This document shows positions 33,113 to 54,120 of a DNA stretch of 64,000 nucleotides, in pieces. The translations under genes and the position numbers were made by a program. Where the stretch lies: assembly GCA_001898625.1 (NCBI GenBank), contig MKUP01000033.1, forward strand, positions 62,001 to 126,000, in the 5' to 3' direction. Under the pieces are notes generated by a model, which was not told the DNA's origin, made no database searches, and was given only the letters and a program-made list of their open reading frames with translations. Source of the stretch: Burkholderiales bacterium 67-32 (lineage in GTDB: Bacteria; Pseudomonadota; Gammaproteobacteria; Burkholderiales; Burkholderiaceae_B). How positions within the stretch are numbered: position 1 is the stretch's first letter; each line of letters starts with the position of its first letter.

Positions 33113-33116
33113 GGCG

Positions 33117-34079
33117 TCATTTCTCCAGCGAGAAGCCGGTGCGCTTGACCACCGCGGCCCACTTGGCGTCCATCGCGCGCATGGAGGCATCGAGCTCCTG
33201 GCTGGACAAGGACAGCGGATCGAGCGACATGCGCTCCAGCCCTTCCCGGTAGACCGGCGCCTGGCAAGCCTTGACCAGAGCCTGGGTCAGGGCCTGCCGG
33301 ACCGGGGCGGGCACCCCGGCCTGCGTGTACGCGCCATAGAACAGGTCGCTGGCCAGATCGGGGAATCCGGATTCCGCCACCGTGGGGACGTCGGGCATGA
33401 AAGGGCTGCGCCGCGTGCCGGTCATCATCAGCACCCGGGCCTTGCCTGACTTGTAGGGCGTGACCAGGTTGGGCAGCGCGGAAATCACGGCAGGCAGGTG
33501 GCCGCCGGAGATGTCGTTCAAGGCCTGTGCCCCGCCCCGGTAGGGCACGTGGATCAGCGGCACGCCCGACAGTCGTTCGATCTCGGTGCCGATGAAATGC
33601 GGTTCGGTGCCCGCGCCGGGCGTGCCGTAGGACGCCTCGCCCGGGTGGGCCTTGGCCCAGGCCAGGAAATCGGCCATGGTCCGCGCCGGCGCGGCGGCGC
33701 CGACCGCGAAACCGAACTGGTAGCCGCACAGCGTGGTCAGGCCGGCAACGTCGCTCATCTTGTAGCCCAGGCCCGCGTTGACGTGCGGCGCGATCGTGAA
33801 CACGCCGGGCGGGGTGATCAGCACGGCACCGCCGTCGGCGGGCGATCGCAGCAGGGCTTCGACGCCTATCTGCCCGGCGGCGCCGGCGTGGTTCTCGACG
33901 ATGGCCAGATAGCCGGCGCCGCGCAGTTGGTCGCCGGCCATGCGCGCGGCCACGTCGACCGCGCCGCCGGCAGGCCCCGCCACCAGCAGCCGGAGCCGCG
34001 TGACCGGTTGACTGTGTGCCGCGCGGCAAGTCATCATGGATGCCGCTGCAGCACTGAGGAAGTGGCGCCGGGTGAGCAT
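33117..34079 (-). CDS. Bug family tripartite tricarboxylate receptor (TctC-like), Tat-like signal
   Basis: 320 residues. The signal MLTRRHFLSAAAASMM contains RRxFL, suggesting Tat export rather than Sec, unlike the other receptors here. Core motifs are LRLLVAGPAGGAVDVAARMA and ENHAGAAGQIGVEALL. The start at 34079 has GGAG six bases upstream; an ATG 27 bases earlier lacks one. First gene of the operon with a sulfatase and a ThDP enzyme, facing a LysR gene, so it may bind an organosulfate or its product. Confidence 0.9.
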   Translation of the reverse strand: MLTRRHFLSAAAASMMTCRAAHSQPVTRLRLLVAGPAGGAVDVAARMAGDQLRGAGYLAIVENHAGAAGQIGVEALLRSPADGGAVLITPPGVFTIAPHVNAGLGYKMSDVAGLTTLCGYQFGFAVGAAAPARTMADFLAWAKAHPGEASYGTPGAGTEPHFIGTEIERLSGVPLIHVPYRGGAQALNDISGGHLPAVISALPNLVTPYKSGKARVLMMTGTRRSPFMPDVPTVAESGFPDLASDLFYGAYTQAGVPAPVRQALTQALVKACQAPVYREGLERMSLDPLSLSSQELDASMRAMDAKWAAVVKRTGFSLEK

Positions 34080-34172
34080 CGTCGTCTCCAAAGCGGGATG
34101 GAGCACTCATTCTAGGGACCCCTCCGCCGCCCGGATAATGAAAAGCGCAGTGCCGCCCATAACCCGCGGTTT

Positions 34173-35093
34173 ATGCCCATGAGCGACCTCATCCGCCGAC
34201 TCACACTGCGTCACCTGCGCCTGCTCGTCATGCTGGGCGAACTCGGCAGCGTCACCCGCACGGCCCAGTTGCTGCACATCACCCAACCGGCCGTCTCCAA
34301 GGCCATCCGCGACCTGCGCGACATCCTGCAGGACCCGCTGTTCGAGCCCACGCCCGACGGGCTGGCATGGACGCCGGCCGGCAAGGCCGCCCTGCAGCGG
34401 GCGCGCGCGATCCTGCGCAACGTGGAAGACCTGGAACGCGACACCGCCCTGCGCGGCCGCGCCGGCGATGCGCCGCTGGGCCTGGGCCTGACCCGCATCG
34501 CCGAAGCGGTGGTGGCGACGGCCCTGCCCTATGCACTGGCCGAACGCGGCGTGCGCGTCAGCCTGCGCCACGGCACGCGCGAACAGATGCACAGCGAACT
34601 CGCGGCCAAGTCCATCCACGTGGCGTTCGGGCGCTGCGACGCGGGATTCCGCCTGCCCGACTTCGAATACCACCCGCTGTACACCGAGAGCTATGCGGTC
34701 GTGTGCGGCCGCCATCATCCCCTGGCGGGCACGACGGCCAGCCTGGAACAACTGTCGGGTCAGGCCTGGGTGCTGCCGCCACCGGGCACCTTCGCCCACC
34801 ATCTGGTGGAACAGGCTTTCCTGGCCGAGAACCTGACCCCGCCCGCGCCCGGCATCGTCTCGACGCTGGGGCCGGGCGACGTCCGGCTGGTGGAGACCCA
34901 GTCGGTGCTGGCGCTGGCGCCGCGCAGCGAGGCCCGGCGGCTGGTGGAAGCCGGCACGGTGTCCTGCGTGGAAGGGCTGGCGCTGCCGCCGCAGCAGATA
35001 GGCGCCATCCTGCTGCGCGCGGGCGAGCGGCACCCGGCCTGCGAACTCGCCATCCAGATGCTGCGCGCCGGCCCCGGCGCCCGGGAACCCTAG
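34173..35093 (+). CDS. LysR family transcriptional regulator
   Basis: 306 residues. Helix-turn-helix [20 protein letters not shown] and an effector domain; the N-terminus [17 protein letters not shown] resembles GbpR-like LysR proteins. Divergent from the Bug-sulfatase-ThDP operon, its likely target. ATG at 34173 or 34179; an imperfect palindrome ATAACCCGCGGTTTAT (34159-34174) overlaps the first. Its stop overlaps the stop of the convergent aldehyde dehydrogenase by three bases (CTAG at 35090-35093). Confidence 0.9.
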
Positions 35094-36517
35094 ACCTGGG
35101 TGATGAACTTGGTCACCAGATAGCCGTCGAAGGTCTCGGTGCCGCCCTCGGTTCCCACCCCGCTGTCCTTGATCCCGCCGAAGGGGATTTCCGCCGGCCC
35201 CATGCCGAAATGGTTGATGTTCACCATGCCGGCCTCCAGTCCGTCGGCCACGCGCGTAGCCGTCTTCAGCGACTCGGTGAAGACGTACGAGGCCAGGCCG
35301 AACGGTAGCGCGTTGGCGCGCCGCAAGGCCTCGTCCTCGGTGTCGAAGGGCACCACCGGCGCCACGGGGCCGAAGGGTTCCTCCTGCATGATGCGCGCAT
35401 CGTCGGCCAGATCCGTCAGCACCGTCGGGGCGAAGAAGAAGCCCTGCCCGTCACGCCGCGCGCCGCCGGTCACGATGCGGCCGCCCCGGCCCACCGCGTC
35501 CTCGACCAACGCCGCCATGGCGGCCACGCGACGGGGATTGGCCAACGGTCCCATCTGCGTCCCCGCTTCCAGGCCGTCGCCCAGCCGGATCTCGGCCATG
35601 GCCTGCGCGAAGGCCTCCAGAAAGCGCGGATAGGCCGCCCGCTGGACGTAGAAACGCGTCGGCGACACGCACACCTGGCCAGCATTGCGCAGCTTGAAGC
35701 GCGCCAGCATCGCGGCCGCCCGGTCGATGTCGGCATCGGCGAACACCAGGACCGGGGAATGGCCGCCCAGCTCCATCGTCATCCGCTTCATGTGGGCGCC
35801 CGCCAGCGCGGCCAGTTGCTTGCCCACCGGCACCGACCCGGTGAAGGAAATCTTGCGCACGGCCGGCGCGGTGATCAGATGGCGGGAAATCGCCGCGGGG
35901 TCGCCCCAGACGATGTTGAACACGCCCGGCGGAAAGCCGGCATCGTGGAACAGCTCGGCGATCGCGACCACCGCGCTGGGCGATTCCTCGGGTCCCTTCA
36001 GGATCAGCGTGCAGCCGGCCGCCAACGCGGCGGCCACCTTGCGGATGGCCTGCGCGAACGGGAAATTCCACGGCGAGAAAGCCGCGCACACGCCTATCGG
36101 CTCGCGCACCACGAACTGCCGCACGTCCGGCTGGCGCGGGGGGATCACTCGGCCGTAGATGCGCCGGCATTCTTCCGCGTGCCACTCCACGTGCTCGGCG
36201 CAGGACTCGACCTCGACCAGGGCCTCAGCCAGCGGCTTGCCTTCGTCCAGCGTGATGTCGCGCGCGATCCGGGGGGCTCGTTCACGAACCAGCGCCGCCA
36301 CCCGCCGCAGCAGGTCGGACCGGGCCAGCGGAGAGGTGCGCCGCCAACCGGGAAAGGCGCGCTCGGCGGCGGCGATGGCACGGTCGAGCTCGGCCGCGCC
36401 CACGTGCGGCAGACGGCCGATGACCTGGCCGGTGGCCGGGTTGACCACGTCGCCGCCGGAGCCGCCGGCGCCCTCGAAGAATTCGCCGTCGATGTAGAAA
36501 GCCAGCTTGCGGTACAT
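35090..36517 (-). CDS. Aldehyde dehydrogenase, succinate-semialdehyde dehydrogenase-like
   Basis: 475 residues. Asn151 in SPWNFP, Glu249 in MELGGHSP and Cys283 in GQVCVSP are the catalytic residues. The N-terminus and [17 protein letters not shown] near the end resemble the GabD/NAD(P)-SSADH branch. The start at 36517 is supported by AGGAG eight bases upstream; the upstream ATG at 36547 overlaps the Bug stop and is less likely. Last gene of the eleven-gene operon, probably oxidising an aldehyde made by its ThDP enzyme or by ring cleavage. Confidence 0.92.
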
Positions 36518-36543
36518 GGCTGCGCTCCTGGTTCCAAGTTCGG

Positions 36544-37521
36544 TCATTGCGCCGTCACACCCAATTTCTTGATCAGCGGTCCGTACACGGCGGCGTCCCG
36601 CTCCATCTCGGCGCGGGTCTGCTCGGGGGCCGGTACGCGGATCTCCACGCCGCGCTTGCCATAGTTGCCGCGCAGCGCCGCATCGTCCATCGCCATGCGG
36701 ATCTCCTTGTTGATATGCGCGGCCAGGGCATCGGACATGGTTCCCGGCGCGAACACCGAGAACACCGTCGACGGAATGGACCCGGGCTTGCCCCCGGCCT
36801 CGGCCAGCGTCGGCACCTCGGGCATGAAGCCGCTGCGCTTGTCCGCCCCGCTCACCAGCACCTTGATCTTGCCGCTCTGCACCTGCTGGCTCATCACCAG
36901 GCCGCCCGCCATCAAGGCGTCGACCTCGCCGCCCAGCAGCGCGGTCAGCGCGGGCGCCACGCCCTTGAAGGGCACGTAGGTGAAGTCCACGCCCTCGGAG
37001 GCCGCCAGCATGGCCATGCCCAGGTGGGTCACGTGGCCGTTGCCGCCGGTGCCGACGTTGATGCCACCGCGTCCGGCGCGCGCCTTCTCCATGAGGCCCT
37101 TGTAGTCGTTCACGCCCAGGCTGCTGCGCACGGCCACGTACAGGTCGATATGGCCGACGTCCGCCACGGGCTTGAGTTCCTTGCGCCAGTCGTAGGGCAG
37201 ATTGGCGTACAGGAAGGGATTGGCGACCAGCGCCAGCCGGTCGACCATCAGGAGCGCCGAGCCATCGCCCGCCGACTTCGCCACGTTGCCCGCGCCGATG
37301 ATGGCATTGGCGCCGGGCTTGTTCTCCACCACGAAGACCTTGCCGGTGCGCTTGGCCAACTGGTTGCCCAGGTCGCGGGCCAGCACGTCGGGTTCGGTGC
37401 CCGGAGGATAGGGAACGACGATGCGGACCTGCTCGGGCCCCCAGGGCGTTTCGGCCCGGACCGGCAGGCACAGCGTGCAGGCCAGCGCAAGAAAGACGCA
37501 AAGAGACTTCAGACTTGCCAT
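36544..37521 (-). CDS. Bug family tripartite tricarboxylate receptor (TctC-like)
   Basis: 325 residues. Signal peptide [19 protein letters not shown], then [20 protein letters not shown] and [19 protein letters not shown]. The PPGTEPD and GANAIIG variants are shared with the receptor at 47539-48546 (PPGSAPD, GANAIVG), so these two are closer to each other than to the rest. Tenth gene of the large operon, 55 bases after the sulfatase-like gene. Confidence 0.92.
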
Positions 37522-37576
37522 GGTGCTCTCCGATGACGACGGGGCCGGACACTCCGGTCCCCAAGAGGAAGCGGGC

Positions 37577-39172
37577 CTACCAGCGCCCGATGACGATGTT
37601 CATCATGCGTTCGTGCGCATGCGTGCGGGCGGCGACCTGCTCGAAGGTCTCGGTGCAGCGGCGCTGGCGGCGCCAGTTCCAGTCGCACAGCGCCTCGCCC
37701 ATGCGGCGCAGGACCGGCGCGGCCCAGACCTCTTCGGCCAGATCGCGCAATTCGCCGGGGTCTTCCCGCAGGTCGAACAACTGCGGGCGCAAGCCTTGCC
37801 AGTACAGGAACTTGTAGCGGCCGTCGGCGAGCATCATGCCGTTGCACTCGGTCACGCCGCGATCCAGGAACAACCGCGCCTCGCGATAGGCGTAGTCCAG
37901 GAAACCGACGGCAAACTCGCGCAGGGGCTCGCCCGCCTGTCCGCGCACCCAGGGCAGCAACGACCGCCCCTCGACGCGATGCGCGGGCACGTCCAGACCC
38001 AGCGCGTCCAGGATGGTGGGCACGACGTCCACGCATTCGGCCGTCTCAGCCACCGAACGGCCACGTTGTGCATCCGCAGCGGACGACGGGTCGTAGACGA
38101 TCAGCGGCACGCGCACCGCCCCTTCGAAGAAGTACTCCTTCTCTCCCAGCCAGTGGTCGCCTTGCAGGTCGCCATGGTCGGAACAGAAGACGATCAGCGT
38201 GTCGCGCAGACGCCCTGCCTGCTCCAGGTGATCGAGCAGGCGGCCGACGTGGTCGTCGATCTGCTTGACCAGTCCCATGTAGACGGGCCGCACGGCGCGC
38301 CAGACCTCGTCCTGCGCGAACGACAGGGATTCCTCGTGGCGCTGGTAGGCGCCGTGCACCGGGTGGGGCCGCTCGCGCTCGGCCTGACCGCGCACCGGGG
38401 CGGCGGCATCCTGCGCCGAGTACATGTCGTGGTAAGGCGCGGGTGCCTTGTAGGGCCAGTGCGGTTTGATATAGGACAGGTGCAACACCCATGGCTGCTC
38501 GCCCTGCCCCGCGATGAAATCGATCGCCCGGTCGGTCAGATAGGCGGTCTCGGAATCCCGCTCGGCCACCCGCGCCGGCAGGCCCGCGTTGCGCAGCAGC
38601 CAGCCCGTGGCGAAGCCGCCGTCCGGGCCCGTGCTGCCGATCACGTCGCGCTCCCAGGGCCGGTCCCGGTCATAGCCATGTTCGATCAGGTAGCGGCGAT
38701 AGCCGCTGCCCGCGTCCATTTCGAAGTGGCCGTCATAGCGTTCCAGCACCTTGAAGCCGCCTTCCATCAGCCGCTCGCCGGCCGCGCCTTCCGCGGACAG
38801 GCCGCGCGCGGCCAGCCCCCGCCGGTCCGGCACGAAATGGGTCTTGCCCAGCAGCCAGCAGTCGCGGCCCGCCTCGGCCAGGTAGTCGCCCAGGCTCCAC
38901 TCGTCCGCCGGCATCGGCACGCGGTTCCAGGTCACGCGATGCGAGCCGGGATAGCGACCGGTGTAGTACGAGGTGCGGGACGGCCCGCACACCGCGGAGC
39001 TGACGTAGGCGCGCTCGAAACGCGCGCCCAGCGCGGCCAGCCGATCGATGTTGGGCGTGCGCAGGGCGCCGCCCCCGCCATAGCAGGACAGGGCATCGGC
39101 CCGCAACTGGTCGCACATGATGAACAGCACGTTGCGCGCCGCGGGGGTGAGGGTATCGTTCGGCGCGTTCAT
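37577..39172 (-). CDS. Sulfatase / phosphonate monoester hydrolase-like enzyme
   Basis: 531 residues. The formylglycine motif is C62-G-P-S-R66 (AVCGPSRTSYYTGRY), the C-x-P-S-R form typical of phosphonate monoester hydrolases and type I sulfatases; metal-ligand regions IMCDQLRADALSCYG and FCSDHGDLQGDHW are intact. Such enzymes are often promiscuous for aryl sulfates, phosphodiesters and phosphonates. No signal peptide. The ATG at 39172 overlaps the flavin hydroxylase stop (ATGA). It probably frees a phenol from an ester in the operon's pathway. It is much diverged from the sulfatase at 31661-33112. Confidence 0.9.
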   Translation of the reverse strand: MNAPNDTLTPAARNVLFIMCDQLRADALSCYGGGGALRTPNIDRLAALGARFERAYVSSAVCGPSRTSYYTGRYPGSHRVTWNRVPMPADEWSLGDYLAEAGRDCWLLGKTHFVPDRRGLAARGLSAEGAAGERLMEGGFKVLERYDGHFEMDAGSGYRRYLIEHGYDRDRPWERDVIGSTGPDGGFATGWLLRNAGLPARVAERDSETAYLTDRAIDFIAGQGEQPWVLHLSYIKPHWPYKAPAPYHDMYSAQDAAAPVRGQAERERPHPVHGAYQRHEESLSFAQDEVWRAVRPVYMGLVKQIDDHVGRLLDHLEQAGRLRDTLIVFCSDHGDLQGDHWLGEKEYFFEGAVRVPLIVYDPSSAADAQRGRSVAETAECVDVVPTILDALGLDVPAHRVEGRSLLPWVRGQAGEPLREFAVGFLDYAYREARLFLDRGVTECNGMMLADGRYKFLYWQGLRPQLFDLREDPGELRDLAEEVWAAPVLRRMGEALCDWNWRRQRRCTETFEQVAARTHAHERMMNIVIGRW

Positions 39173-40824
39173 GCGGCGGCCTCCAGGACGGGCGTGGCGG
39201 ATGCCGGCTCGGCCGGAGCCGGCAGGAACTCGGCGACGAAACGCTCCAGCGCGCCATGCATGTCGGCGTGCCTGCCGGCCGCCGCCACATAGCGGTCGGG
39301 GCGCAGCAGCACCCAATCGGCGCCCGCCGCCGCGAACCAGCGGTGCAGCGCGTTTTCGGTGTCCTCGAGCAGGCTCATGCCGGCGGGCGACGGCGGACGC
39401 ACACCCGGCGCGGGACCGCTGCGGGGCAGCGCGACGGCGGCCAGCCGGCAGTCCATGCGCCCCAGCCCCTCGTCCAGCGCCGCCGGCAGCGGCGCTGTCG
39501 GCGCGCGCACCAGCAGCGCGAAACCCGGGCCGAGCGCATCGTCCAGTTTCTGGAAATCGCCGCCGTCCTTCTCCACCAGCGGCTGGATAAACATCCGGCC
39601 GACCCGCTCGTCGCGCGCCGCCTGGCCGCTGTCCTGCACGACCCCGGCGCGATACCGGGGCATGGGCTTGAACTTCATCTGCAGGACGTAGTCGCGCACC
39701 GCCGGTATGCCGCGGATGGCGCCGAAGAACGCGTCGCGCAGCGCGGCCAGCCAGCGGTTGCGCAGCGACAGCACCGCGCCGAACCGGTCGGCCAGGTCGA
39801 TCATCGCCTTGGCGTGCGCGTGCCGCTCGTCATGGTAGGACTGCAACGCCTCCGGACGCAGGCGGCCGCCGACGATCCACGCGATCTTCCAGGCAAGATT
39901 GCAGGCGTCGCGCAGGCCGGCGTTGAGCCCCTGCCCGATCCAGGGCGGCGTGAGGTGCGCTGCGTCGCCCGCCAGACAGACGCGTCCGGTCACGAAGGAT
40001 CCGGCGATGCGCGAATGATGGGTGTAGACCCGCGCGCGGATCACGTTCAACGCGTCCGGATCCGGCACGTGCGGCGCCAGCAGTTCGCGCACCTTGGCCG
40101 GATCGAGGATCTGGCTTTCGTCCTCGCCGTCGAACAGCATGAACTCCCAGCGGCGCAGGCCATACGGCAGCTTCAGGCAAACATAGGGACGCGCGGGCTC
40201 GCAATGCAGCGCGGTATAGGGCGCGTCCAGGGGATCCCGGTCGCATTCGATCACCACCCATTTGTGGGCGTGGGTCTGGCCGCCGAAGGGCAGCTTGAGC
40301 AGCCCTTCGCGCACGGTGCTGCGGCCGCCGTCGGCGGCCAGCAGGTAGGCGGCGCGTACCTGGCGTTCGGTGCCGTCCGCGCGGCGCAGCGTCGCGGTCA
40401 CGCCGCCTTCGTCCTGCTCCAGCGCCACCAGTTCGACCCCCAGCTCCAGCGCGACGTGCGGGAAGCGCGACAGGCCGGCGCGCAGGGTCTGCTCGCCCAG
40501 CGGCTGCGAGAACAGGTTGCGGCGATACCAGCCGAACTCGCGCGTAGCGGGCAGGATCTCGGCGAAGCATTGCTTGCGCGCGCCATACATGCGCATGGGC
40601 ACGTTCTGGATCATGTCGCGCAGCATCGCCTCGGCCAGGCCGGCGGCCTGGAAGGTACGCATGGCCTCGTCATCCAGGCCCACCGCGCGCGGATACTCCA
40701 GGATCGCCGGGCTGCGATCGACCAACAGCGTGCCGACTCCGTAGGTACCCAGCAGATTGGCCAGCGTCGCGCCCACCGGCCCGGCGCCGACGACCAGCAC
40801 GGGCACGTCGCAAGACTTGTTCAT
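39169..40824 (-). CDS. FAD-dependent aromatic hydroxylase, MhpA-like
   Basis: 551 residues, the size of 3-(3-hydroxyphenyl)propionate hydroxylase. FAD motif VVGAGPVGATLANLLG at residues 11-26, NAD(P)H/FAD motif AADGGRSTVREGL and the third motif CLAGDAAHLTPPWIGQGLNAG are present, plus a C-terminal thioredoxin-like domain. It should hydroxylate a phenol, giving a catechol or hydroquinone. The start at 40824 has GGAG eight bases upstream. Coupled by overlap to the sulfatase-like gene. Confidence 0.9.
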   Translation of the reverse strand: MNKSCDVPVLVVGAGPVGATLANLLGTYGVGTLLVDRSPAILEYPRAVGLDDEAMRTFQAAGLAEAMLRDMIQNVPMRMYGARKQCFAEILPATREFGWYRRNLFSQPLGEQTLRAGLSRFPHVALELGVELVALEQDEGGVTATLRRADGTERQVRAAYLLAADGGRSTVREGLLKLPFGGQTHAHKWVVIECDRDPLDAPYTALHCEPARPYVCLKLPYGLRRWEFMLFDGEDESQILDPAKVRELLAPHVPDPDALNVIRARVYTHHSRIAGSFVTGRVCLAGDAAHLTPPWIGQGLNAGLRDACNLAWKIAWIVGGRLRPEALQSYHDERHAHAKAMIDLADRFGAVLSLRNRWLAALRDAFFGAIRGIPAVRDYVLQMKFKPMPRYRAGVVQDSGQAARDERVGRMFIQPLVEKDGGDFQKLDDALGPGFALLVRAPTAPLPAALDEGLGRMDCRLAAVALPRSGPAPGVRPPSPAGMSLLEDTENALHRWFAAAGADWVLLRPDRYVAAAGRHADMHGALERFVAEFLPAPAEPASATPVLEAAA

Positions 40825-40843
40825 CCCTGTTCTCCGATGCGCC

Positions 40844-41140
40844 TCAGGCCTGCGCGAGGATGCGGCTTTCCTGCCGCACCAGCAGGTGCCGGACCGATTT
40901 GCGGAAGGCGGCGAACTCGGCGTCCGCGGCCAGCACCGCGCGGCGGCTCGCACGTTCGTCCAGCGATTCGTAGGCCCACAGGAAGACGAGCTGGTTGAGC
41001 TCGCCGGTCTCGGACTGGTAGAGGCCGGCCAGGTTGCCGAGGATGCGCGTCTGCAGCGCCCGGGCGGACGGGTTGTAGAGGCGCAGGTATTCCGCGCCGC
41101 CGCCCGGCACCAGCGTATAGGTCCGCATTTCCACCATCAT
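40844..41140 (-). CDS. NIPSNAP family protein
   Basis: 98 residues, a single ferredoxin-like NIPSNAP domain: VEMRTYTLVPGGGAEYLRLY at the start and LVFLWAYESLDERASRRAVL in the middle. These small dimeric proteins recur in bacterial catabolic operons with no settled function. The start at 41140 has GAGGAG nine bases upstream; an earlier ATG at 41149 overlaps that ribosome site. It lies between the hydrolase (13-base gap) and the flavin hydroxylase (19). Confidence 0.82.
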   Translation of the reverse strand: MMVEMRTYTLVPGGGAEYLRLYNPSARALQTRILGNLAGLYQSETGELNQLVFLWAYESLDERASRRAVLAADAEFAAFRKSVRHLLVRQESRILAQA

Positions 41141-41153
41141 GATGTTCATCTCC

Positions 41154-42002
41154 TCAGGGCGCGGGCGCCGCGCCCAGGAATTCGGTGACCGCCCGCGCGA
41201 CCCGCTCGGGCTGGTCGTCGTGGACGTAGTGGCCTGCATCGGGGATCTCCCGCCAGGCGATCGCGGGATTGCGCGCTGCCATGGCCTGGGCGGTCGCCAC
41301 GCTCAGGTAGTCCGACCGGCCGCCGCGCAGGACCAGCGTGGGACAGCGCAGCGCCTGGACCGGCGGCCACAGGTCGACCACCCGTGCCGGGTCCGGATCC
41401 AGGCGGGCGGCCTTGATGCCCGCGTGGTCGTAGCGCCAGCGCAGGCGGCCGCCGTCTGGCTCCAGCATGTGGCGCAGCCGGGCCGCGATGGCCTCGGGGG
41501 TCACGGTCGGCCGGATCTCGCGCATGAAGGCCTCGGCCGCGCCCCAGTCGGCGAAGGACTCGGGCGTGCGGGACAGCTCGGCGCGGATGCGCCGGGCACC
41601 GTCGCTGTCGTCGAAGGCGCCCGGTCCGGCATCCTCGACCACCAGCCTGCGCACCCGGTCCGGGTGGGCGGCGGCGTAGACGATGGCGTTGATGCCGCCC
41701 ATGGAATGCCCGAGCAGGTCGAAGCGGGACAGCCCCAGTTGCTCGACCACCGCCCGCACGTCCTGGACGTAGGCATCGGTGTAGTAGTTGCGCCCCGGGT
41801 CCCAGTCGCTCTGCCCGCGACCGCGATGGTCCAGCGCCAGCACCCGGTAGCCAGGCTGCAACGCGCCGGCCAGTCCCTCGAAGGTGTCGGCGAAGCTGCG
41901 TATGCCATGCAGCATCAGTATCGGCCAGCCGCCGGCATCGCCCCAGTCCGCGACGTGCAGGCTGAGGTCTCCACAGCGGACGGTATGGTCGCGGCGGTCC
42001 AT
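41154..42002 (-). CDS. Alpha/beta hydrolase
   Basis: 282 residues. Nucleophile Ser100 in LLGHSMGG, oxyanion HG at 32-33 (LMLHGIRS) and catalytic His in DAGHYVHDD near residue 264. The fold matches the MhpC/BphD and esterase families; ALDHRGRGQSDW is typical. It could hydrolyse a ring-cleavage product or an ester. It starts one base after the AA_synth gene stop. Confidence 0.88.
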   Translation of the reverse strand: MDRRDHTVRCGDLSLHVADWGDAGGWPILMLHGIRSFADTFEGLAGALQPGYRVLALDHRGRGQSDWDPGRNYYTDAYVQDVRAVVEQLGLSRFDLLGHSMGGINAIVYAAAHPDRVRRLVVEDAGPGAFDDSDGARRIRAELSRTPESFADWGAAEAFMREIRPTVTPEAIAARLRHMLEPDGGRLRWRYDHAGIKAARLDPDPARVVDLWPPVQALRCPTLVLRGGRSDYLSVATAQAMAARNPAIAWREIPDAGHYVHDDQPERVARAVTEFLGAAPAP

Positions 42003-42003
42003 C

Positions 42004-42603
42004 TCAGTTCAACCCGTCGCCGACGATCTCACTGGCCTTCAAGCCACCCAGGCGGGCATGCAGCCGGCCGCGCGTGGCGAAGGCAAAGGCGATCAGCACT
42101 TCGTCGCGGTTGGGCGCATCGTTGAACAGGGCCGACACCGTGTCGTAGTGCGAGCGCACGTACAGCGCGTCCTTGTGCGCCAGCGGAATGTCGATGACCG
42201 TGCCCGGGCCGCCGCGCTTGCCCGTGGACGGCACCCACGACTGGGCGCCGCCCAGCGCGTCGCGCACGGGATTGGCGAACACCGTGGTCAAAAGCGCGTT
42301 GCCATGTTCGTATTCGCCGTCCGCGCCCACCAGGCAGGCCTTGCCGTAGCTCTCGATGGGCGTGCCGGCGGCGGCTTCCTGGATGCGGCGGCCGAACTCC
42401 GCGCCCAGCAGGTTGGAGGGCTCAATAAAGGCGCCCAGGTTGTCCTCGTGGCGGCCGGCGTAGGGGTTGTGCAGCACCGCGCCCACGACGATCTTGCGCA
42501 GCGCGGCGCCATCGGCGGGCATGCCCGATTCGGTGGCCAGCGTGTCCTCGATCTGGAGGTACCACTTGCGGATATGGTAGGGGCCGAAGTTGGGGGATTT
42601 CAT
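42004..42603 (-). CDS. AA_synth (DUF1185-like) family protein
   Basis: 199 residues. HIRKWYLQIEDTLATESGMP at the start and DIPLAHKDALYVRSHYDT near residue 150 match the so-called amino acid synthesis family, whose biochemical activity is not established. Several conserved His, Glu and Asp residues suggest a metal-dependent or acid-base enzyme. The family is common in Burkholderiales catabolic clusters. The start at 42603 fits the conserved N-terminus. Confidence 0.8.
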   Translation of the reverse strand: MKSPNFGPYHIRKWYLQIEDTLATESGMPADGAALRKIVVGAVLHNPYAGRHEDNLGAFIEPSNLLGAEFGRRIQEAAAGTPIESYGKACLVGADGEYEHGNALLTTVFANPVRDALGGAQSWVPSTGKRGGPGTVIDIPLAHKDALYVRSHYDTVSALFNDAPNRDEVLIAFAFATRGRLHARLGGLKASEIVGDGLN

Positions 42604-42629
42604 GATGGGTTCCGTGATTCGATGATGGG

Positions 42630-43112
42630 TCAGAGCGGCTGCAGATCGATGGGATCGCTGGGCGCGTGATACTGGTGCAGGATGCGCTTGCCCTCTTCGT
42701 CGTCGTGCACCGTGTGGCAGAAGAACTCCAGGCGGTGGCCGTCGGGGTCGTGGAAATAGACGCCGTAGCCGACCTTGTGGTCGGTGGTCTTGACCACCTC
42801 GACGCCCTTGCGCAGCAGCATCCCGTACAGGCGGCGCAGCTCGTCGACGTCGCCGTCTATCTCCAGGCCGTAGTGCTGCATGTTGATCTGGCCGCGCGAC
42901 AGCGGCGTGCCGTCCGCGGACTCGGCGCGTATCAGCGCGATGTCGTGATGCTTGACGCCGAACGAGAGAAACACCCACTTCTCGCCGCGCGCGGTCTCGG
43001 TCATGCCCAGCACGTCCTCGTACCAGGGGCCCGACTTGAACGGGTCGGCCACGAACAGGGAAAGATGCGTGCGCGTGATCCGGGGCTTGATGTCCTGTGC
43101 GATGTGCGACAT
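42630..43112 (-). CDS. VOC family protein, possible extradiol dioxygenase
   Basis: 160 residues, one vicinal-oxygen-chelate domain. Metal ligands H16 (RTHLSLFV), H80 (MQHYGLEI) and E129 (GHRLEFFC) reproduce the 2-His-1-Glu set of type I extradiol dioxygenases, and YFHDPDGHRLEF is the usual final strand. With the flavin hydroxylase and alpha/beta hydrolase of the same operon it could form a hydroxylation, ring-cleavage and hydrolysis sequence. The start at 43112 has GAGGAG upstream. A lyase or isomerase role is the alternative. Confidence 0.83.
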   Translation of the reverse strand: MSHIAQDIKPRITRTHLSLFVADPFKSGPWYEDVLGMTETARGEKWVFLSFGVKHHDIALIRAESADGTPLSRGQINMQHYGLEIDGDVDELRRLYGMLLRKGVEVVKTTDHKVGYGVYFHDPDGHRLEFFCHTVHDDEEGKRILHQYHAPSDPIDLQPL

Positions 43113-43123
43113 GGCGGCTCTCC

Positions 43124-44167
43124 TCAGACGATGGATTGGGGATGCGCGTGCACCGGCGCCACGTGGGGCGTCCACGCGACCGAGGTGATCTCGCTGAAAT
43201 CGCGCCAGTCCTTGAACCAGCTTCGCCCGCCGTCCATCGAGCGGAACAGGTGGCCGTACTTGGTGCCGGCCAGCACGAAGCACGGATCGGCCGCGTGCGT
43301 GCCGAAGGCCCAGAAGGTCGAGTTGGGCGCGGTGTGCAGCAGCGCCCGCTCCCAGGTCGCGCCCCGATCGGCCGAGCGGTAGATATGGCTGCGCGTGCCC
43401 GGCGTGCCATCGCCGATGGCCAGCAGCAATGCGCTGCCGTCGGCCAGGGGCTGGGCGGTGCGGGTGTAGTACATGCCGTCGAAGCGCAGGCGCGAGGGTT
43501 CGCCCGCCCAGGTCCGCCCGTCGTCGGTGCTGGCATAGACCGTGTTGACCGACAACACCAGCGTCTTCTTCGGCTGCCCGCCCGCGGGTGCAAGAATGGT
43601 GACGCCGTGGATGTCGGGATTGGCGATGGCGTCATCGCGCGCGCCTTCCTGGTCGACGCGCGTCCAGGTGTCGCCGCGGTCGCCGCTGCGCCAGGCGCCG
43701 CCCTCTTCCACGCCGAACCAGACCTCGCCCGCCACGGCCGGATCCACGCAGATGGCCAGGATGCGGGGCCGGTTCACACCCCGGCAGAACTCCGGGATCT
43801 CCGGTGGCAGCCGGGTCCAGCTCGCGCCGCCGTCCAGCGACCGGAACATGGCCGCGCGCGACGGTGCGCCGGTACCCGCATACATCACGGCGGGATCGCG
43901 TGGATCGATGGCGAAGGCCCAGACCGTCAAGCCGTCCGCGGGCGAATCGACGCGCGAGAAATGCGCGCCGCCGTCGGTGCTCAGGCAGATGCCGCAGTCG
44001 GCGCCGGCGAACACGCGGCTCGGATCGGCCGGATCCACCGCCAGGCAGCGGACCACGCCGTCGAACTCGATGGCTTCCTTCAGACCCAGCCGGTGCCAGC
44101 TCGCGCCGTCGTCGACGCTGCGCAATATGCCCTGTCCAGCCGTTCCCACCAGTAGCGTGCCTTGCAT
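43124..44167 (-). CDS. Seven-Asp-box beta-propeller (BNR/sialidase-like repeat) protein
   Basis: 347 residues built almost wholly from BNR repeats. Asp boxes (S-x-D-x-G-x-x-W/F) occur seven times: SVDDGASW, STDGGAHF, SLDGGASW, SGDRGDTW, STDDGRTW, SADRGATW and SMDGGRSW, at fairly even spacing, implying a seven-bladed propeller. There is no signal peptide, so it is probably cytoplasmic. Sialidase active-site arginines are not evident. Its job in an operon of catabolic enzymes is unknown: a scaffold, a lactonase-like hydrolase or a sensor are possibilities. Confidence 0.85.
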   Translation of the reverse strand: MQGTLLVGTAGQGILRSVDDGASWHRLGLKEAIEFDGVVRCLAVDPADPSRVFAGADCGICLSTDGGAHFSRVDSPADGLTVWAFAIDPRDPAVMYAGTGAPSRAAMFRSLDGGASWTRLPPEIPEFCRGVNRPRILAICVDPAVAGEVWFGVEEGGAWRSGDRGDTWTRVDQEGARDDAIANPDIHGVTILAPAGGQPKKTLVLSVNTVYASTDDGRTWAGEPSRLRFDGMYYTRTAQPLADGSALLLAIGDGTPGTRSHIYRSADRGATWERALLHTAPNSTFWAFGTHAADPCFVLAGTKYGHLFRSMDGGRSWFKDWRDFSEITSVAWTPHVAPVHAHPQSIV

Positions 44168-44181
44168 AGTGCGTCTCCCGC

Positions 44182-44979
44182 TCAAAGGAAAATGCCGCGC
44201 GTGATGCCGCCGTCCACGCCTATCGACTCGCCGGTGATGGCGGCCGCCCGGGGCGAAGCCAGGAACAGGATGGTGTCGGCGATCTCGGCCGGCGTCAGCG
44301 TGCGCCGGATGGGCGTGGCGCGGATGTAGTTGGCCTCGACCTCGTCCACGCTCAGCCCCTGCTTGGCGGCCTCCTTCTCGTACAGCTCGCGGATGTGGGG
44401 CGTGTCGACCACGCCGGGATGGATCACGTTGACCGTGATCCCATGGGGCCCGAGCTGGTCCGACAGGGTCTTGGTCATGTGGCAGACGGCCACGTTGCGC
44501 ATGCCCGAGAGCTGCTTGCTGCCGCGCCCGGTCAGGCCGCCGATGTTGACGATGCGGCCATAGCCGCCGGCCTTCATGTGCCGCGCCGCTTCCTTGGCGC
44601 AGCGCATGTAGCCCACGACCTTGATGTTGATGTCCTGCAGCAGCCCCTCGGGATCGGCCAGCTCGATCTCGCTGCGCACCAGCCCGCCCGGATGGGCCGC
44701 GCCATTGACCAGGATGTCCAGGCGGCCGAAATGCGCGGCCACGCGGTCCATCATCGCCGCCACCTGCGCGGTGTCGGATACGTCGGCCGCCACCGGCAGC
44801 ACGTCCACGCCATGCGCGGCGCGGATCTCGCGCGCGGCCGCATCGAGCTGGGCCTGGTTGCGCGAGACGATCGCCACGTTCACGCCTTCGGCCGCCAGGG
44901 CCTCGGCGGTCGCCCGCCCTATGCCCAGGCTGCCGCCCGTCACGACCGCCGCGCGGCCTTTCAGTTCCAGTTCCATCAT
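44182..44979 (-). CDS. SDR family protein lacking the YxxxK catalytic motif
   Basis: 265 residues with a clear short-chain dehydrogenase fold: cofactor motif TGGSLGIG (14-21), VNGAAHPGG for the NNAG region and GPHGITVNVIHPGVVDTP. The catalytic region reads NIGGLTGRGSKQLSGMRNVA, where the usual Ser is Gly, the Tyr aligns with Ser158 and the Lys with Asn162; no YxxxK is found nearby. Asn118 of the tetrad seems kept. So it either uses another mechanism or binds a ligand without catalysis. Starts at 44979 or 44976. Second gene of the large operon. Confidence 0.88.
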   Translation of the reverse strand: MMELELKGRAAVVTGGSLGIGRATAEALAAEGVNVAIVSRNQAQLDAAAREIRAAHGVDVLPVAADVSDTAQVAAMMDRVAAHFGRLDILVNGAAHPGGLVRSEIELADPEGLLQDINIKVVGYMRCAKEAARHMKAGGYGRIVNIGGLTGRGSKQLSGMRNVAVCHMTKTLSDQLGPHGITVNVIHPGVVDTPHIRELYEKEAAKQGLSVDEVEANYIRATPIRRTLTPAEIADTILFLASPRAAAITGESIGVDGGITRGIFL

Positions 44980-45024
44980 TTCTCCAATGAATCGTTGTCG
45001 GCGCGGCCCCGGGGGCCGGCGGCA

Positions 45025-46569
45025 CTACAGTTGCATTTCGATCAGGGTCGGCCCGGGACGCGCGCAGGCGGCGGTGAAGGCCTCGGCCAATTCCTCGGCC
45101 GTCTCGACCCGGCTGGACGGCACGCCGTAGCCGTCGGCCAGCCGCGTCCAGTCGATGCGCGGCCGGTCCAGACTGGTCAGCGCCTCGGCCTGCGGACCGG
45201 GCTGCTCGCCGCGTGCCAGCTCCTTGCGCAGGATTCCGTACTGGTGATTGGCGGCGATCAGCACGACCACCGGCAGGTTCTCGTGCGCCAGCGACCAGAG
45301 CGTCTGCACCGTGTACTGCGTGCTGCCGTCCGACAGCAGCGCCACCACCCGGCGCCCGGGGCTGGCGATCGCCGCGCCCAGTGCCACCGGCAACCCCTGT
45401 CCGATCGCACCGCCGGTATTGGTCAGCGCGGTGTGGCGGGCCGAGGCCGCCGAAGCGGCATAGAACGGATAGCCGCAGGTGCCGCCCTCGACCGAGACGA
45501 TGGCGTCCTCGGGCAGCAGGCGCGCGACCGTGGCCGAAATCGCGGCGGGGGTCAGCCGGCCCTGCTGCGCCGGCAGGGACGCCGGTGCGGCGGCTTCCCA
45601 GGCGGGCGCATCCAGCATCCCGGCCAGCGCCTCGAGGTAGTCGGCCACCGGCTCGCCCGGCGCCCCCAGCGGCAGCAGCCGGCCGGGCTCCACCATCTGG
45701 CTGGGATGGCCCTCGTAGCCGAAGTAGGTCACGGGCGGCAGCGCGCCGGCCAGCACGACCACGTCCGCTTCGTCCAGCACCGCGCGGGCGGGTTCGGGGA
45801 AATAGGGCAGGCGATCGAAATCGGGCAGGCCGCCGCCGCGCTCGGCACGCGACGGGAAGGTCTCGGCATAGGCCGACGCGCCCAGCGCGGCGCACAGCCG
45901 GGCGGCGGCACGCTGCCCGCGGGCGCCCAGACCGCTGGCCGGCCCCCCGCCTCCCAGCAGGAACAGGACCTTGCGCGCGGACTTCAGCCGCGCGGCGCAC
46001 GCCGCCAGGTCGGGAGCGGGCGCCGGTTCCTCGCGGGCATCGGCACCGGCGACTTCATCGCCGCCGGCCTCGCCCACCTGGAAATCGGCCGGGAAAATGA
46101 CGGTCGCGCCCTGCCCGCCGCGCGCCAGGCTGGCGCGCACGGCGTCCCGCCCGGCCCGCGCGGCGTCCCCCGCGCTGGTTACCCGGTGCACCCAGCCCGA
46201 CACCGGCCGCGCCAGCGACTCGATGTCGGAGGTCAACGGCGCATCGAACGGCAGATGCCAGCTCATGTGGTCGCCGATCAGGTTGACGATGGGCGTATGG
46301 GCGCGCCGGGCGTTGTGCAGGTTGGCGATTCCGTTGGCAAAGCCGGGCCCCAGATGCAGCAGCGTGGCCGCCGGCGCGCCGCGCATGCGGCCGTAGCCGT
46401 CGGCGCCGCCGGTGCAGACGTTCTCCTGCAGGCCCAGCACGCAGCGCATGCCGGGCACGGCATCGAACGCCCGCACGATGTCCAGTTCCGTCGTGCCGGG
46501 ATTGGCGAAACACACCTCCACGCCTTCCACCTGCAAGGCCGCCAGCAAGGCTTGCGCTCCAGTCGTCAT
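45025..46569 (-). CDS. Thiamine diphosphate enzyme, acetolactate synthase large subunit-like (IlvX type)
   Basis: 514 residues. Catalytic Glu in VLGLQENVCTGGADGYGRM; the ThDP motif is LLSDGSTQYTVQTL ending with ANHQYGIL, so the usual GDG is SDG. LLHLGPGFANGIANLHNARR and IGDHMSWHLPFDAPLTSDIE place it with IlvX-like proteins of unknown activity, near benzoylformate decarboxylase. Strong ribosome site AAGGAG upstream. First gene of the eleven-gene operon, facing an IclR gene. Aryl-2-oxo acid decarboxylation would fit the rest of the operon but is inference. Confidence 0.88.
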   Translation of the reverse strand: MTTGAQALLAALQVEGVEVCFANPGTTELDIVRAFDAVPGMRCVLGLQENVCTGGADGYGRMRGAPAATLLHLGPGFANGIANLHNARRAHTPIVNLIGDHMSWHLPFDAPLTSDIESLARPVSGWVHRVTSAGDAARAGRDAVRASLARGGQGATVIFPADFQVGEAGGDEVAGADAREEPAPAPDLAACAARLKSARKVLFLLGGGGPASGLGARGQRAAARLCAALGASAYAETFPSRAERGGGLPDFDRLPYFPEPARAVLDEADVVVLAGALPPVTYFGYEGHPSQMVEPGRLLPLGAPGEPVADYLEALAGMLDAPAWEAAAPASLPAQQGRLTPAAISATVARLLPEDAIVSVEGGTCGYPFYAASAASARHTALTNTGGAIGQGLPVALGAAIASPGRRVVALLSDGSTQYTVQTLWSLAHENLPVVVLIAANHQYGILRKELARGEQPGPQAEALTSLDRPRIDWTRLADGYGVPSSRVETAEELAEAFTAACARPGPTLIEMQL

Positions 46570-46591: not shown

Positions 46592-46608
46592 TTATCGCTA
46601 TTCGATAA
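46592..46608. promoter_or_regulatory. Inverted repeat in the ThDP operon/IclR divergent promoter region
   Basis: TTATCG-CTATT-CGATAA, six-base perfect arms; on the minus strand it covers a GATAAT that could be the -10 box of the large operon. A second repeat, ATTTC-AATA-GAAAT, lies at 46642-46655. The whole 46570-46680 stretch is strikingly AT-rich. Probably binding sites for the IclR protein encoded next door. Confidence 0.6.
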
Positions 46609-46770: not shown

Positions 46771-47520
46771 ATGAACAGCCTTCGCCGCATGCTCGACGTC
46801 CTCGACCTCTTCAGGCCCGACCAGCCTGCCGTCGACGTCGACGTGATCTGCAACCAGCTCGGCTACGCGCCCGCCACGGCCTATCGCTACATCCGGGAAC
46901 TCTGCGCGGTGGGCCTCCTGGTGCGGCTTCCGGGGGGATATGCGCTGGGGCCGCGCGTGATCCAGCTCGATCTGCAGATGCGCGAATACGACCCGATGCT
47001 CAACGAGAGCCGAGACCTGATCGAGGCCCTGGGGGAAGAAACGGGCCTGAACGTGCTGCTGAGCGAGCTGTACGGCAGCACGGTCATCACCGTGCACCAC
47101 CACCCGGGCCGCGACGCCGAGCCGCTGCGTTTCGGCCGCGGCCGCCCCATGGCCCTGCTGCGCAGCGCCACCGCGCGCGTGGTGCTGGCCAGCCTGCCGC
47201 CCCGCCAACTGCGCCGCCTGTATGACGAGCACGCGCAGGAAGCGGACATGCAGCGGCTGGGCGCCAGTTGGAAGGACTTCTCGCGCGCCATGCTGGAGAT
47301 ACGGCGCGCGGGATACTGCCTGTCCGTCGGCGACCTCGACCCGGACAAGGCCGGGATCGCCGCCCCCATCTTCGATGAACGCAAGCGGATACTGGGCAGC
47401 ATCACCGCCGTGGGATCGGTGGACCGCTTCCAGGCGTTCAACGAGGAATACCTGGCCAGGCGCCTGCGCGAGGCCGCCGAGGAAATCACGCGGCGGATCT
47501 CGCAGGGCGCGCAGGCCTGA
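46771..47520 (+). CDS. IclR family transcriptional regulator
   Basis: 249 residues. N-terminal winged helix (VDVICNQLGYAPATAYRYIRELCAVGLL) and C-terminal effector domain with GRGRPMALLRSATARVVLAS and GYCLSVGDLDPDKAGIAAPI. Divergent from the eleven-gene operon, it is its likely regulator. The ATG at 46771 gives the usual N-terminus; a longer frame back to 46675 would run through the AT-rich promoter region. It resembles the IclR protein at 53361-54116. Confidence 0.9.
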   Translation: MNSLRRMLDVLDLFRPDQPAVDVDVICNQLGYAPATAYRYIRELCAVGLLVRLPGGYALGPRVIQLDLQMREYDPMLNESRDLIEALGEETGLNVLLSELYGSTVITVHHHPGRDAEPLRFGRGRPMALLRSATARVVLASLPPRQLRRLYDEHAQEADMQRLGASWKDFSRAMLEIRRAGYCLSVGDLDPDKAGIAAPIFDERKRILGSITAVGSVDRFQAFNEEYLARRLREAAEEITRRISQGAQA

Positions 47521-47538: not shown

Positions 47539-48546
47539 TCATTCCAGCCGGATGTTCGCGTCGCGGATCAGCTTGCCCAGCCGCGCCGTCTCGGCCTCGA
47601 CGCCCGCGTTCACCTGCTCGGGCGTGCTGGGCGCGATCACCAGCCCGCGCGCCGCGAAGGTCGAGACGAAGGCCGGATCCGCCTGTGCCCGCGCGACCGC
47701 GGCGTTGATGCCGCGAATCACCTGCGGCGGCGTCCTCGCGGGAGCGAACAGGGTGAAATGGGTGGGGATCAGCAGATCGCCGGGCGCGCCGGCCTCGGCC
47801 AGCGTCGGCACGTCGGGCATCAGCGGGGAACGCTTGGCGTTGCCCACGACCAGCCCGCGCAACCGGCCCGAGCGGATGTGCTCGAGCACGGTCTCCGGCC
47901 CCGTGACCACGCACGGCACGTCGCCGCCCACCACGGCGGCCGCCGCCGGCACCATGCCCTTGTACGGCACGTCGGTGATCTGCACGCCGTAGTGGCGTTC
48001 GATCAGTTCCAGGCTCAGGTGATGCACGCTGCCCTGGCCGCCCGTGGCGACCATCAGCGCTCCCGGGTGCCTGCGGGCGTGGGCGATCATCTCGCTCCAG
48101 GTCTTGAACGGCGCATCGGCACGGCAGACGACGGCCAGATCGACGCTGGCGACGTCGGACACGCCAGTCAGGTCCCGCGCGGCGTACGGCAGCTTGGCAT
48201 AGAGCACCGGATTGACCGACAGCGTCAAGCGGTCGACCAGCAACAAGGTGTTGCCGTTGGCCGCGGCCTTGGCAACCGCGTCGCTGCCGACGATGGCATT
48301 GGCGCCGGGCTTGTTCTCGACCACGACGGTCTTGTCCGCCGCGGCGCTCAGCCGCTCGGCCAGGCCGCGGGCCAGCACGTCCGGGGCGCTGCCCGGCGGA
48401 TAGGGCACGACGATGGAAGCCGTCTGCGCCGGCCATGTCTGGGCTTGTGCGCCGGTCGCGGCAAACAGCAGGACGCCGGCCACGGCAAACACGTGGCGAC
48501 GCAGCGGGGACGAGGAAACGGGTGCTGCCACGAAAACCTGGTTCAT
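47539..48546 (-). CDS. Bug family tripartite tricarboxylate receptor (TctC-like)
   Basis: 335 residues; signal region RRHVFAVAGVLLFAATGAQAQ, then [20 protein letters not shown] and [19 protein letters not shown]. The start at 48546 has AGGAG upstream; a frame 51 bases longer lacks one. It follows the CocE-like hydrolase gene after 70 bases in the operon that begins with an HpaB-like enzyme, and ends 18 bases from the convergent IclR gene. Confidence 0.92.
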   Translation of the reverse strand: MNQVFVAAPVSSSPLRRHVFAVAGVLLFAATGAQAQTWPAQTASIVVPYPPGSAPDVLARGLAERLSAAADKTVVVENKPGANAIVGSDAVAKAAANGNTLLLVDRLTLSVNPVLYAKLPYAARDLTGVSDVASVDLAVVCRADAPFKTWSEMIAHARRHPGALMVATGGQGSVHHLSLELIERHYGVQITDVPYKGMVPAAAAVVGGDVPCVVTGPETVLEHIRSGRLRGLVVGNAKRSPLMPDVPTLAEAGAPGDLLIPTHFTLFAPARTPPQVIRGINAAVARAQADPAFVSTFAARGLVIAPSTPEQVNAGVEAETARLGKLIRDANIRLE

Positions 48547-48616
48547 CCAATTCTCCTGGGATACACGTTGCGGACCATGCCCGCGAATGCGAGGCATGGC
48601 GCGGGGGAACTACGTT

Positions 48617-50413: not shown

Positions 50414-50459
50414 GTCTGTCCCCTCTTGTTCTGATCTGGTGTTGGCCGGTGGCCGCGAG

Positions 50460-51935: not shown

Positions 51936-51956
51936 CGACGCTCTCCTTGAGCCTTG

Positions 51957-54116: not shown

Positions 54117-54120
54117 GCGG

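Follow-up and report, generated by a model that had tools for sequence, protein, structure and literature searches.

The 64-kb window analysed here (G000:C33:62001-126000, from the 6.66 Mb genome of Burkholderiales bacterium 67-32) carries an eleven-gene operon on the minus strand at positions 35090-46569, facing a gene for an IclR regulator. This operon is real, widely retained and uncharacterised as far as the open-access literature shows. Its class, aromatic ring-cleavage catabolism, is known, and the combination of genes and the roles proposed for several of the proteins would be new. The locus had been described before from its letters alone (hereafter the sequence-only reading) as an apparent, undescribed aromatic ester pathway, and all frames were present where that reading had placed them. 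The eleven genes, from operon gene 1 onwards, and the facing regulator are as follows, with the supporting evidence in brackets.

45025-46569, minus strand: THDP, operon gene 1, benzoylformate-decarboxylase-like enzyme dependent on thiamine diphosphate (ThDP), 514 aa (Pfam, NCBIfam)
44182-44979, minus strand: SDR, short-chain dehydrogenase/reductase lacking the Ser-Tyr-Lys triad, 265 aa, probably an ene-reductase (Pfam, alignment, nearest solved chains)
43124-44167, minus strand: ASPBOX, seven-Asp-box beta-propeller, 347 aa (Pfam, structure model)
42630-43112, minus strand: VOC, single-domain vicinal oxygen chelate protein, ring-cleavage-dioxygenase-like, 160 aa (residues, profile match)
42004-42603, minus strand: AA_synth (PF06684, DUF1185), 199 aa (Pfam)
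41154-42002, minus strand: ABH, alpha/beta hydrolase with S100/D231/H258, 282 aa (Pfam, residues)
40844-41149, minus strand: NIPSNAP family protein, 101 aa (Pfam)
39169-40824, minus strand: FMO, class A flavin hydroxylase, MhpA-like, 551 aa (Pfam, NCBIfam, motifs)
37577-39172, minus strand: SULF, formylglycine-type sulfatase (CGPSR), accessory, 531 aa (Pfam, NCBIfam, motif)
36544-37521, minus strand: Bug/TctC solute receptor, 325 aa (Pfam)
35090-36517, minus strand: ALDH, succinate-semialdehyde-dehydrogenase-like aldehyde dehydrogenase, 475 aa (TIGR01780, below cut-off)
46771-47520, plus strand: IclR regulator (IclR domains from the ATG at 46771; frame listed from 46675)

The largest intergenic gap is 55 bases, as had been stated, and the gaps from gene 1 onwards measure 45, 14, 11, 26, 1, 4, 19, -4, 55 and 26 bases; the eleven genes are presumably transcribed as one mRNA. 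Either 36517 or 36547 may serve as the start of ALDH, and the IclR gene probably starts at the ATG at 46771 rather than at 46675 because the ATGAACAG start is present in the aligned relatives. The domain families that had been named were upheld by Pfam, namely TPP enzyme N and C, adh_short_C2, BNR/Asp-box and Sortilin-Vps10, Glyoxalase (VOC), AA_synth, Abhydrolase_1, NIPSNAP, FAD_binding_3, Sulfatase, TctC/Bug and Aldedh. Inspection of the N-terminus of the propeller by eye revealed no signal peptide.

Gene content, gene order, co-variation, active-site residues and flanking genes were computed. A wide scan with the VOC alignment covered one genome each for 84,980 species and gave 159 pattern matches, of which 135 were relatives; the best 80 of these 135 were analysed. 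The scan demanded KHHDIALI or QHYGLEI[DE] in VOC and favours near relatives of the query. Nine of the 80 loci had less than 6 kb on one side of VOC and were excluded, leaving 71 comparable loci. THDP, SDR and the propeller were found in all 71, AA_synth and FMO in 70, and ABH in 69, followed by NIPSNAP (53), ALDH at no less than 60% identity (42), IclR at no less than 48% (25), Bug at no less than 44% (17) and SULF at no less than 55% (13). The order and strand THDP-SDR-ASPBOX-VOC-AA_synth-ABH-FMO were common to 69 of the 71 loci, L085 and L159 being the exceptions, with extra genes inserted at some loci, such as a StyD-like aldehyde dehydrogenase between THDP and SDR. The hosts comprised Achromobacter, Variovorax, Pseudacidovorax, Hydrogenophaga, Herbaspirillum, Burkholderia, Paraburkholderia and Pigmentiphaga as well as Streptomyces, Nonomuraea, Lentzea, Kineosporia, Pseudomaricurvus and Acinetobacter. 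When the seven core proteins were compared in 72 loci, their pairwise distances correlated at 0.69-0.97, and for the weakest pair 0 of 2000 permutations reached the observed value, in a calculation that did not remove shared species descent, which alone would raise the values. The sequence-only reading had proposed a search for conserved co-occurrence and had named scattering of the homologues in relatives as a sign against it; the core block is kept from Burkholderiales to Streptomyces, and such scattering did not occur. That the gene order persists in bacteria so far apart implies that the natural substrate is useful and that the reactions follow a fixed sequence. At the Lentzea indica locus (L147), the THDP match at about 5.0-6.6 kb falls in two pieces, which may reflect a frameshift or a sequencing error.

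Closer to the window, an FMO match at E 1e-150 or better occurred in eight of 61 searched genomes, all of the window's genus and its own counted. Six of the seven other same-genus loci carry all eleven genes in order, and L019, on the same contig as L085, is without ABH and AA_synth. In the family, 47 of 268 genomes contained a propeller match at E 1e-20 or better, and 20 of these places were examined. Nine loci (L053-L061) hold THDP, SDR, propeller, VOC, AA_synth, ABH, FMO, SULF and Bug without NIPSNAP, with ALDH in the stretch for L061 only, and L066 has NIPSNAP and two ALDH matches, SULF not being found on a contig that ends nearby. Four further loci (L062-L065) keep only the propeller, AA_synth and ABH of the core, all within a compact module of a glutathione S-transferase, propeller, AA_synth, ABH, Bug and a regulator named by eye as GntR-type. 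L067, extended as L073, contains THDP, VOC, AA_synth, ALDH and SDR, with a 48% ABH and a 48% propeller kilobases off and no FMO found, while five loci (L068-L072) have a distant propeller at 34-36%, one of them together with THDP at 44% and NIPSNAP at 36%. VOC is rare in the class, for a match at E 1e-30 or better appeared in one of 369 evenly drawn genomes, namely the window's own.

The core also occurs on plasmids. Two plasmid records (L161 and L162) contain the full core, and a Burkholderia cenocepacia plasmid record has VOC and FMO matches less than 2 kb apart; no named pathway annotation was seen in these records. On pBPJTT, a Burkholderia pyrrocinia plasmid, the annotation of the core runs from acetolactate synthase through to NAD-dependent succinate-semialdehyde dehydrogenase, and an APC permease, an aldehyde dehydrogenase and a class III aminotransferase are also present in the 28-kb stretch. 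In addition, a Novosphingobium locus (L163) assembles a StyD-like aldehyde dehydrogenase, propeller, VOC (42%), AA_synth, ABH, THDP, SDR and a GabD-like aldehyde dehydrogenase.

The class A motifs of FMO were found in 77, 78 and 77 of 79 sequences, and the protein passes NCBIfam NF004831 with 730 bits against a cut-off of 546. This model is named after the hydroxylase of the mhp pathway of E. coli for 3-(3-hydroxyphenyl)propionate, and FMO is 41% identical to the mhpA-annotated genes of E. coli records. However, the operon is without the hydratase, the aldolase and the acetaldehyde (acylating) dehydrogenase of mhp, and the nucleophile elbow of ABH reads GHSxGG instead of GNSxGG. An MhpA-type pathway was rejected on the absence of the partner enzymes and on the identity of only 41%, and the label "3-(3-hydroxyphenyl)propionate hydroxylase" on this flavin enzyme in the Burkholderia pyrrocinia plasmid record may mislead.

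VOC is probably a ring-cleavage dioxygenase, to judge from its residues and its profile matches. The 2-His-1-Glu set that had been noticed corresponds to H16/H80/E129, and H16, H80, E129, H55, H56, D57, H112 and Y119 are invariant in 81 sequences, although this conservation is partly built in, the scan patterns covering H55-D57 (75 of 80 as such) and H80 (48 of 80). The 42% Novosphingobium VOC, which lies outside the scan patterns, retains the same residues except at position 55. What we take to be the extradiol signature in a PROSITE-like form fits VOC in 78 of the 80 loci. The best profile match was 9u42, which the fold library titles homogentisate 1,2-dioxygenase of Acinetobacter. Two ordinary homogentisate dioxygenases encoded elsewhere in the genome make homogentisate itself less likely as the substrate.

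THDP passes NCBIfam NF005760 with 655 bits against a cut-off of 363, its nearest solved chains are benzoylformate decarboxylases, and E49 and H72 are invariant in 74 aligned sequences. ARAGORN called a tRNA-Phe at 45941-46016 within the THDP gene on the same strand, which was most likely a false positive and was taken as such. At the other end of the operon, the best match of ALDH was TIGR01780, with 500 bits against a cut-off of 646, so that the enzyme is succinate-semialdehyde-dehydrogenase-like and its identity as one is unproved by score. A 66% identical match in L161 is annotated as NAD-dependent succinate-semialdehyde dehydrogenase.

The SDR had been called non-canonical, and alignment with three ordinary members of the family agrees, since S158 and N162 occupy the positions of the Tyr and Lys, and a gap stands at the position of the Ser. 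YxxxK occurred anywhere in only one of 78 sequences; NIGGxTGR was present in 76 of the 78 and SGMRN in 69, and the TGGxxGIG residues are conserved. The nearest solved chains were 6jh7, which we take to be AerF of aeruginosin biosynthesis, and 3u49 (YwfH/BacG, an enzyme of bacilysin formation), and loss of the Tyr and Lys in the alignment is common to both and the operon protein. BacG acts by conjugate hydride addition. The lost triad and the nearness to 6jh7 and BacG suggest that the SDR is an ene-reductase, which is the leading inference. A review gives BacG as a reductase of a dihydro-4-hydroxyphenylpyruvate (H2HPP) derivative (PMC9147277). It serves natural-product biosynthesis, whereas the SDR is placed in catabolism, and the operon thus offers a likely catabolic case of a triad-less SDR.

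ABH retains S100, D231 and H258 and has the nucleophile elbow GHS[ML]GG in all 77 sequences; GNSxGG, presumably the motif of meta-cleavage-product C-C hydrolases, was found in none of these 77. Its best solved match was 3bwx, followed by 3kxp, alpha-(N-acetylaminomethylene)succinic acid hydrolase. Seven Asp boxes were counted in the propeller, as had been proposed, one of them with a terminal Phe. Its structure model is confident (predicted local distance difference test score 92.7), and its fold matches are Asp-box propellers, led by 3b7f. In 25 propeller sequences, many polar residues do not vary, which would suit a binding or catalytic face. The first structures of DUF1185/AA_synth reportedly appeared in 2010, with a role proposed from fold and neighbours only. 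At L073, AA_synth stands directly before the succinate-semialdehyde-dehydrogenase-like ALDH. According to one report, HcdD of the hydroxycoumarin operon is an AA_synth homologue, and another homologue, TgnF, reportedly stimulates the oxidation of succinic semialdehyde when trigonelline is degraded, an effect that was not seen with HcdD (PMC7913881). By analogy, this recurring tie of AA_synth to semialdehyde-forming catabolism agrees with the operon, which places AA_synth, the Asp-box propeller and NIPSNAP in one defined pathway and makes their functions assayable. The window's genome has six further AA_synth paralogs (L002-L007), several of them, by eye, amid catabolic or transport genes.

The genes beside the operon in other hosts provide clues to its substrate. 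Among the 80 loci, the flanks included a primary-amine oxidase (13), an APC-type permease (25), two kinds of StyD-like aldehyde dehydrogenase (7 and 23), a class III aminotransferase (7), an EutR-like AraC regulator (11) and a WrbA quinone reductase (7), counts that take in weak matches such as two aminotransferases at 28-30% and several regulators at 34-41%. A GabD-type enzyme, whose query scores above its NCBIfam cut-off, was present in 24 of the 80. At least one of the oxidase, the permease, the aminotransferase and the first StyD-like kind (phenylacetaldehyde-dehydrogenase-like) occurred at 29 loci. Together with the pBPJTT and Novosphingobium loci, these flanks point to an arylacetaldehyde and arylacetate upstream and to a semialdehyde downstream.

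From these data we infer the substrate, the order of steps, the roles of AA_synth, the propeller and NIPSNAP, and the ene-reduction by the SDR. The reading we favour, at a little short of an even chance, is that the operon serves to break down a phenolic aryl acid, and most likely one of the hydroxyphenylacetate class. In Pigmentiphaga, the Bug receptor would bind the acid or its sulfate ester and the sulfatase would free the acid, while in other hosts the acid would be made from an arylethylamine by the amine oxidase or the class III aminotransferase together with the phenylacetaldehyde-dehydrogenase-like enzyme. FMO would then hydroxylate the ring and VOC would cleave it with dioxygen, after which ABH, AA_synth, the Asp-box propeller and NIPSNAP might process the open-chain product by hydrolysis and isomerisation. 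The triad-less SDR would reduce a conjugated C=C bond, THDP would decarboxylate a 2-oxo acid to an aldehyde, and the ALDH would oxidise a semialdehyde to succinate-type acids for entry into the citric acid cycle. This route resembles the 4-hydroxyphenylacetate meta pathway via homoprotocatechuate, which, in the part of its description at hand, likewise has an arylacetate entry and a succinic semialdehyde dehydrogenase exit (PMC12718150). Somewhat more tentatively, the operon may represent a new ring-cleavage pathway of Burkholderiales, Actinomycetota and a few others, in which four proteins with unfamiliar or unexpected enzymatic roles, namely AA_synth, an intracellular propeller, NIPSNAP and a triad-less SDR ene-reductase, handle the open-chain product, and a ThDP decarboxylase replaces hydratase and aldolase on the way to the semialdehyde. 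If so, both AA_synth and the propeller would act as enzymes in catabolism, probably as an isomerase in the first case and a lactonase or isomerase in the second.

Several observations weigh against the hydroxyphenylacetate reading, among them the pattern-derived share of the VOC conservation, the ALDH score and the weak flank matches given above. The usual lower-pathway enzymes for hydroxyphenylacetate are not among the eleven genes; as far as the meta pathway is described in the source, these are its 5-carboxymethyl-2-hydroxymuconic semialdehyde (CHMS) dehydrogenase, isomerases, decarboxylase, hydratase and aldolase. All four amine-type genes are lacking at 51 of the 80 loci, the Pigmentiphaga and Achromobacter ones included, the queries for the StyD-like enzyme, permease, regulator and aminotransferase score below curated cut-offs, and no copper amine oxidase match was found in the window's genome. 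One of 16 Burkholderiales loci without the full operon has such a flanking gene, in a weak control with unmatched taxa. In a Foldseek comparison with the VOC model, whose confidence is moderate, FosA-type and lactoylglutathione-lyase chains took ranks 1-16 and 9u42 came 17th. The extradiol signature, as we presume it to read, does not fit the Novosphingobium VOC, and the genome already has the two ordinary homogentisate dioxygenases mentioned. FMO was not found within 20 kb at that Novosphingobium locus, nor in L159 or the G142 locus, and AA_synth and ABH were not found in L019/L085.

Other substrates were considered. A polyphenol A-ring pathway, like fde for naringenin, ifc for isoflavones or hcd for 7-hydroxycoumarin, would have FMO hydroxylate a fused-ring phenol and VOC open it. 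We hold this unlikely. In related hosts, the fde (Herbaspirillum) and ifc (Variovorax) systems combine an FMO, a glyoxalase-type dioxygenase and a hydrolase as the operon does; ifc, with its alpha/beta hydrolase, is reported from Variovorax and Burkholderia (PMC11069340), and the hcd operon of Pseudomonas mandelii 7HK4 shares a flavin hydroxylase, a type I ring-cleavage dioxygenase, a hydrolase and a DUF1185-type gene. The divergence of the proteins speaks in two ways. The published 36% identity of IfcA to FdeE contrasts with 69-72% for the operon FMOs of Variovorax and Herbaspirillum, so the hydroxylase patterns differ, whereas 65.8% for IfcB and FdeC is near the 67-73% of the operon VOCs of the same pair and does not separate the systems (PMC11069340). 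By their published descriptions only, the Rieske partner FdeD of fde (PMC8552027) and the cupins of ifc (PMC11069340) are absent from the eleven genes, and in the available parts of the fde and ifc descriptions a ThDP enzyme or propeller is not mentioned. Similarly, hcd has an alcohol-dehydrogenase-type reductase, a cupin and a flavin mononucleotide (FMN) reductase of its own, and its description, as far as accessible, leaves a ThDP enzyme, a triad-less SDR and an Asp-box propeller unmentioned. Moreover, some flanks of the operon point to amines. A hydroxymandelate-type pathway is improbable. Here the SDR would oxidise the hydroxy acid, THDP would be a benzoylformate decarboxylase, ALDH a benzaldehyde dehydrogenase, and FMO and VOC would open a hydroxybenzoate. 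The kinship of THDP to benzoylformate decarboxylases among solved chains and its retained E49 and H72 would suit such a scheme, but the SDR is without the catalytic Tyr and Lys required of an alcohol dehydrogenase in this family, and the ALDH, like the second aldehyde dehydrogenase of many copies, is succinate-semialdehyde-dehydrogenase-like. There is a similarly small chance that the substrate of the core is a heteroaromatic (N-ring) acid, handled as in the breakdown of vitamin B6 or trigonelline, with succinic semialdehyde at the end. The second-best solved match of ABH, the recurrence of a DUF1185 protein in the trigonelline pathway as partly described (PMC7913881) and the character of the ALDH are in its favour; no amidase or pyridine-type oxygenase family is among the eleven genes, however, and VOC has the residue set of a ring-cleavage dioxygenase.

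The model of the sequence-only reading, an operon whose main purpose is to cleave aryl sulfate or phosphonate esters, we regard as very improbable. SULF does carry the C-x-P-S-R motif in all 15 orthologs of at least 55% identity, but it is an accessory gene present in just 13 of the 71 comparable loci (plus two of the nine short ones), and because of this ester cleavage looks like a lineage-specific front end. From the earlier working model, the coherent conserved set with hydroxylation, probable ring opening, hydrolysis, and 2-oxo-acid and aldehyde steps was retained, and ester cleavage as the core was given up. The class assigned to SULF, a CGPSR-type sulfatase or phosphonate monoester hydrolase, holds for the motif; its sequence is nearer to sulfatase chains, with 468 and 459 bits for 4upl and 4upi ("sulfatase family protein") against 249 bits for the best chain of the phosphonate-monoester-hydrolase type. 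A second sulfatase adjoins the operon and is listed here with the other neighbouring features.

31661-33169, minus strand: SULF2, second sulfatase, neighbour, retained in six of seven relatives
33117-34106, minus strand: BUG3, second Bug receptor, neighbour, retained in six of seven relatives
34173-35093, plus strand: LysR regulator at the downstream end of the operon, likewise placed in six of seven relatives
46592-46608, no strand assigned: TTATCG-N5-CGATAA palindrome of the divergent promoter region, candidate operator, sole such pattern in the 64 kb

At L022/L084, SULF2, BUG3 and LysR were not found in the roughly 3 kb examined beyond ALDH. A CocE-type hydrolase also adjoins the operon in the window and in three relatives, and SULF2 and this hydrolase would speak for an ester connection of some kind in the lineage of the window itself. 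The palindrome, at the opposite end of the operon, is preserved in L081-L084 and changed in L085 and L016.

To judge from its gene families, the operon thus sits in an aromatic catabolic region. Beside it, upstream of the IclR gene at 47539-52518, a Bug receptor, the CocE/NonD-type hydrolase and an HpaB-type hydroxylase are encoded leftward, with a divergent flavin reductase. A second aromatic set of phenylpropionate type at 53361-63321 comprises an IclR, a second FMO (37.5% to FMO), a second VOC (33.3% to VOC), a Bug receptor, genes of HpcH/HpaI and FAA-hydrolase type, an alpha/beta hydrolase, a Rieske oxygenase and a LigB-type gene, and in five of the seven relatives the FMO of this set adjoins the operon or lies close to it. 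Genes of the HpaB-type hydroxylase and HpaI-type aldolase families known from 4-hydroxyphenylacetate degradation are present in the window and outside the operon. The HpaB-type gene mildly favours a 4-hydroxyphenyl substrate and the CocE-type gene an ester. Against the former, the HpaB-type (4-hydroxyphenylacetate 3-hydroxylase) gene scores 465 bits with TIGR02309, just below the cut-off of 480, and only three of the seven relatives have its group beside the operon; two of these three carry two CocE copies. Since neither the HpaB nor the phenylpropionate-type set is retained with the operon in all relatives, the assessment of the substrate was left as before.

The sequence-only reading knew of no characterised pathway with this set of genes, and no description was found in the open-access literature either; most subscription journals lie outside that literature, so this proves little. 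Elsewhere in the window's genome, a module at 7333-17250 of another contig (L072, G000:C27) unites a propeller (36%), THDP (43-44%) and NIPSNAP (36%) with genes of the old-yellow-enzyme and carboxymuconolactone-decarboxylase types, an arylmalonate-decarboxylase-like gene, an IclR and Bug receptors, and no FMO or VOC match was found in it. By analogy, the old-yellow-enzyme-type gene is what would be expected if such modules have to reduce C=C bonds.

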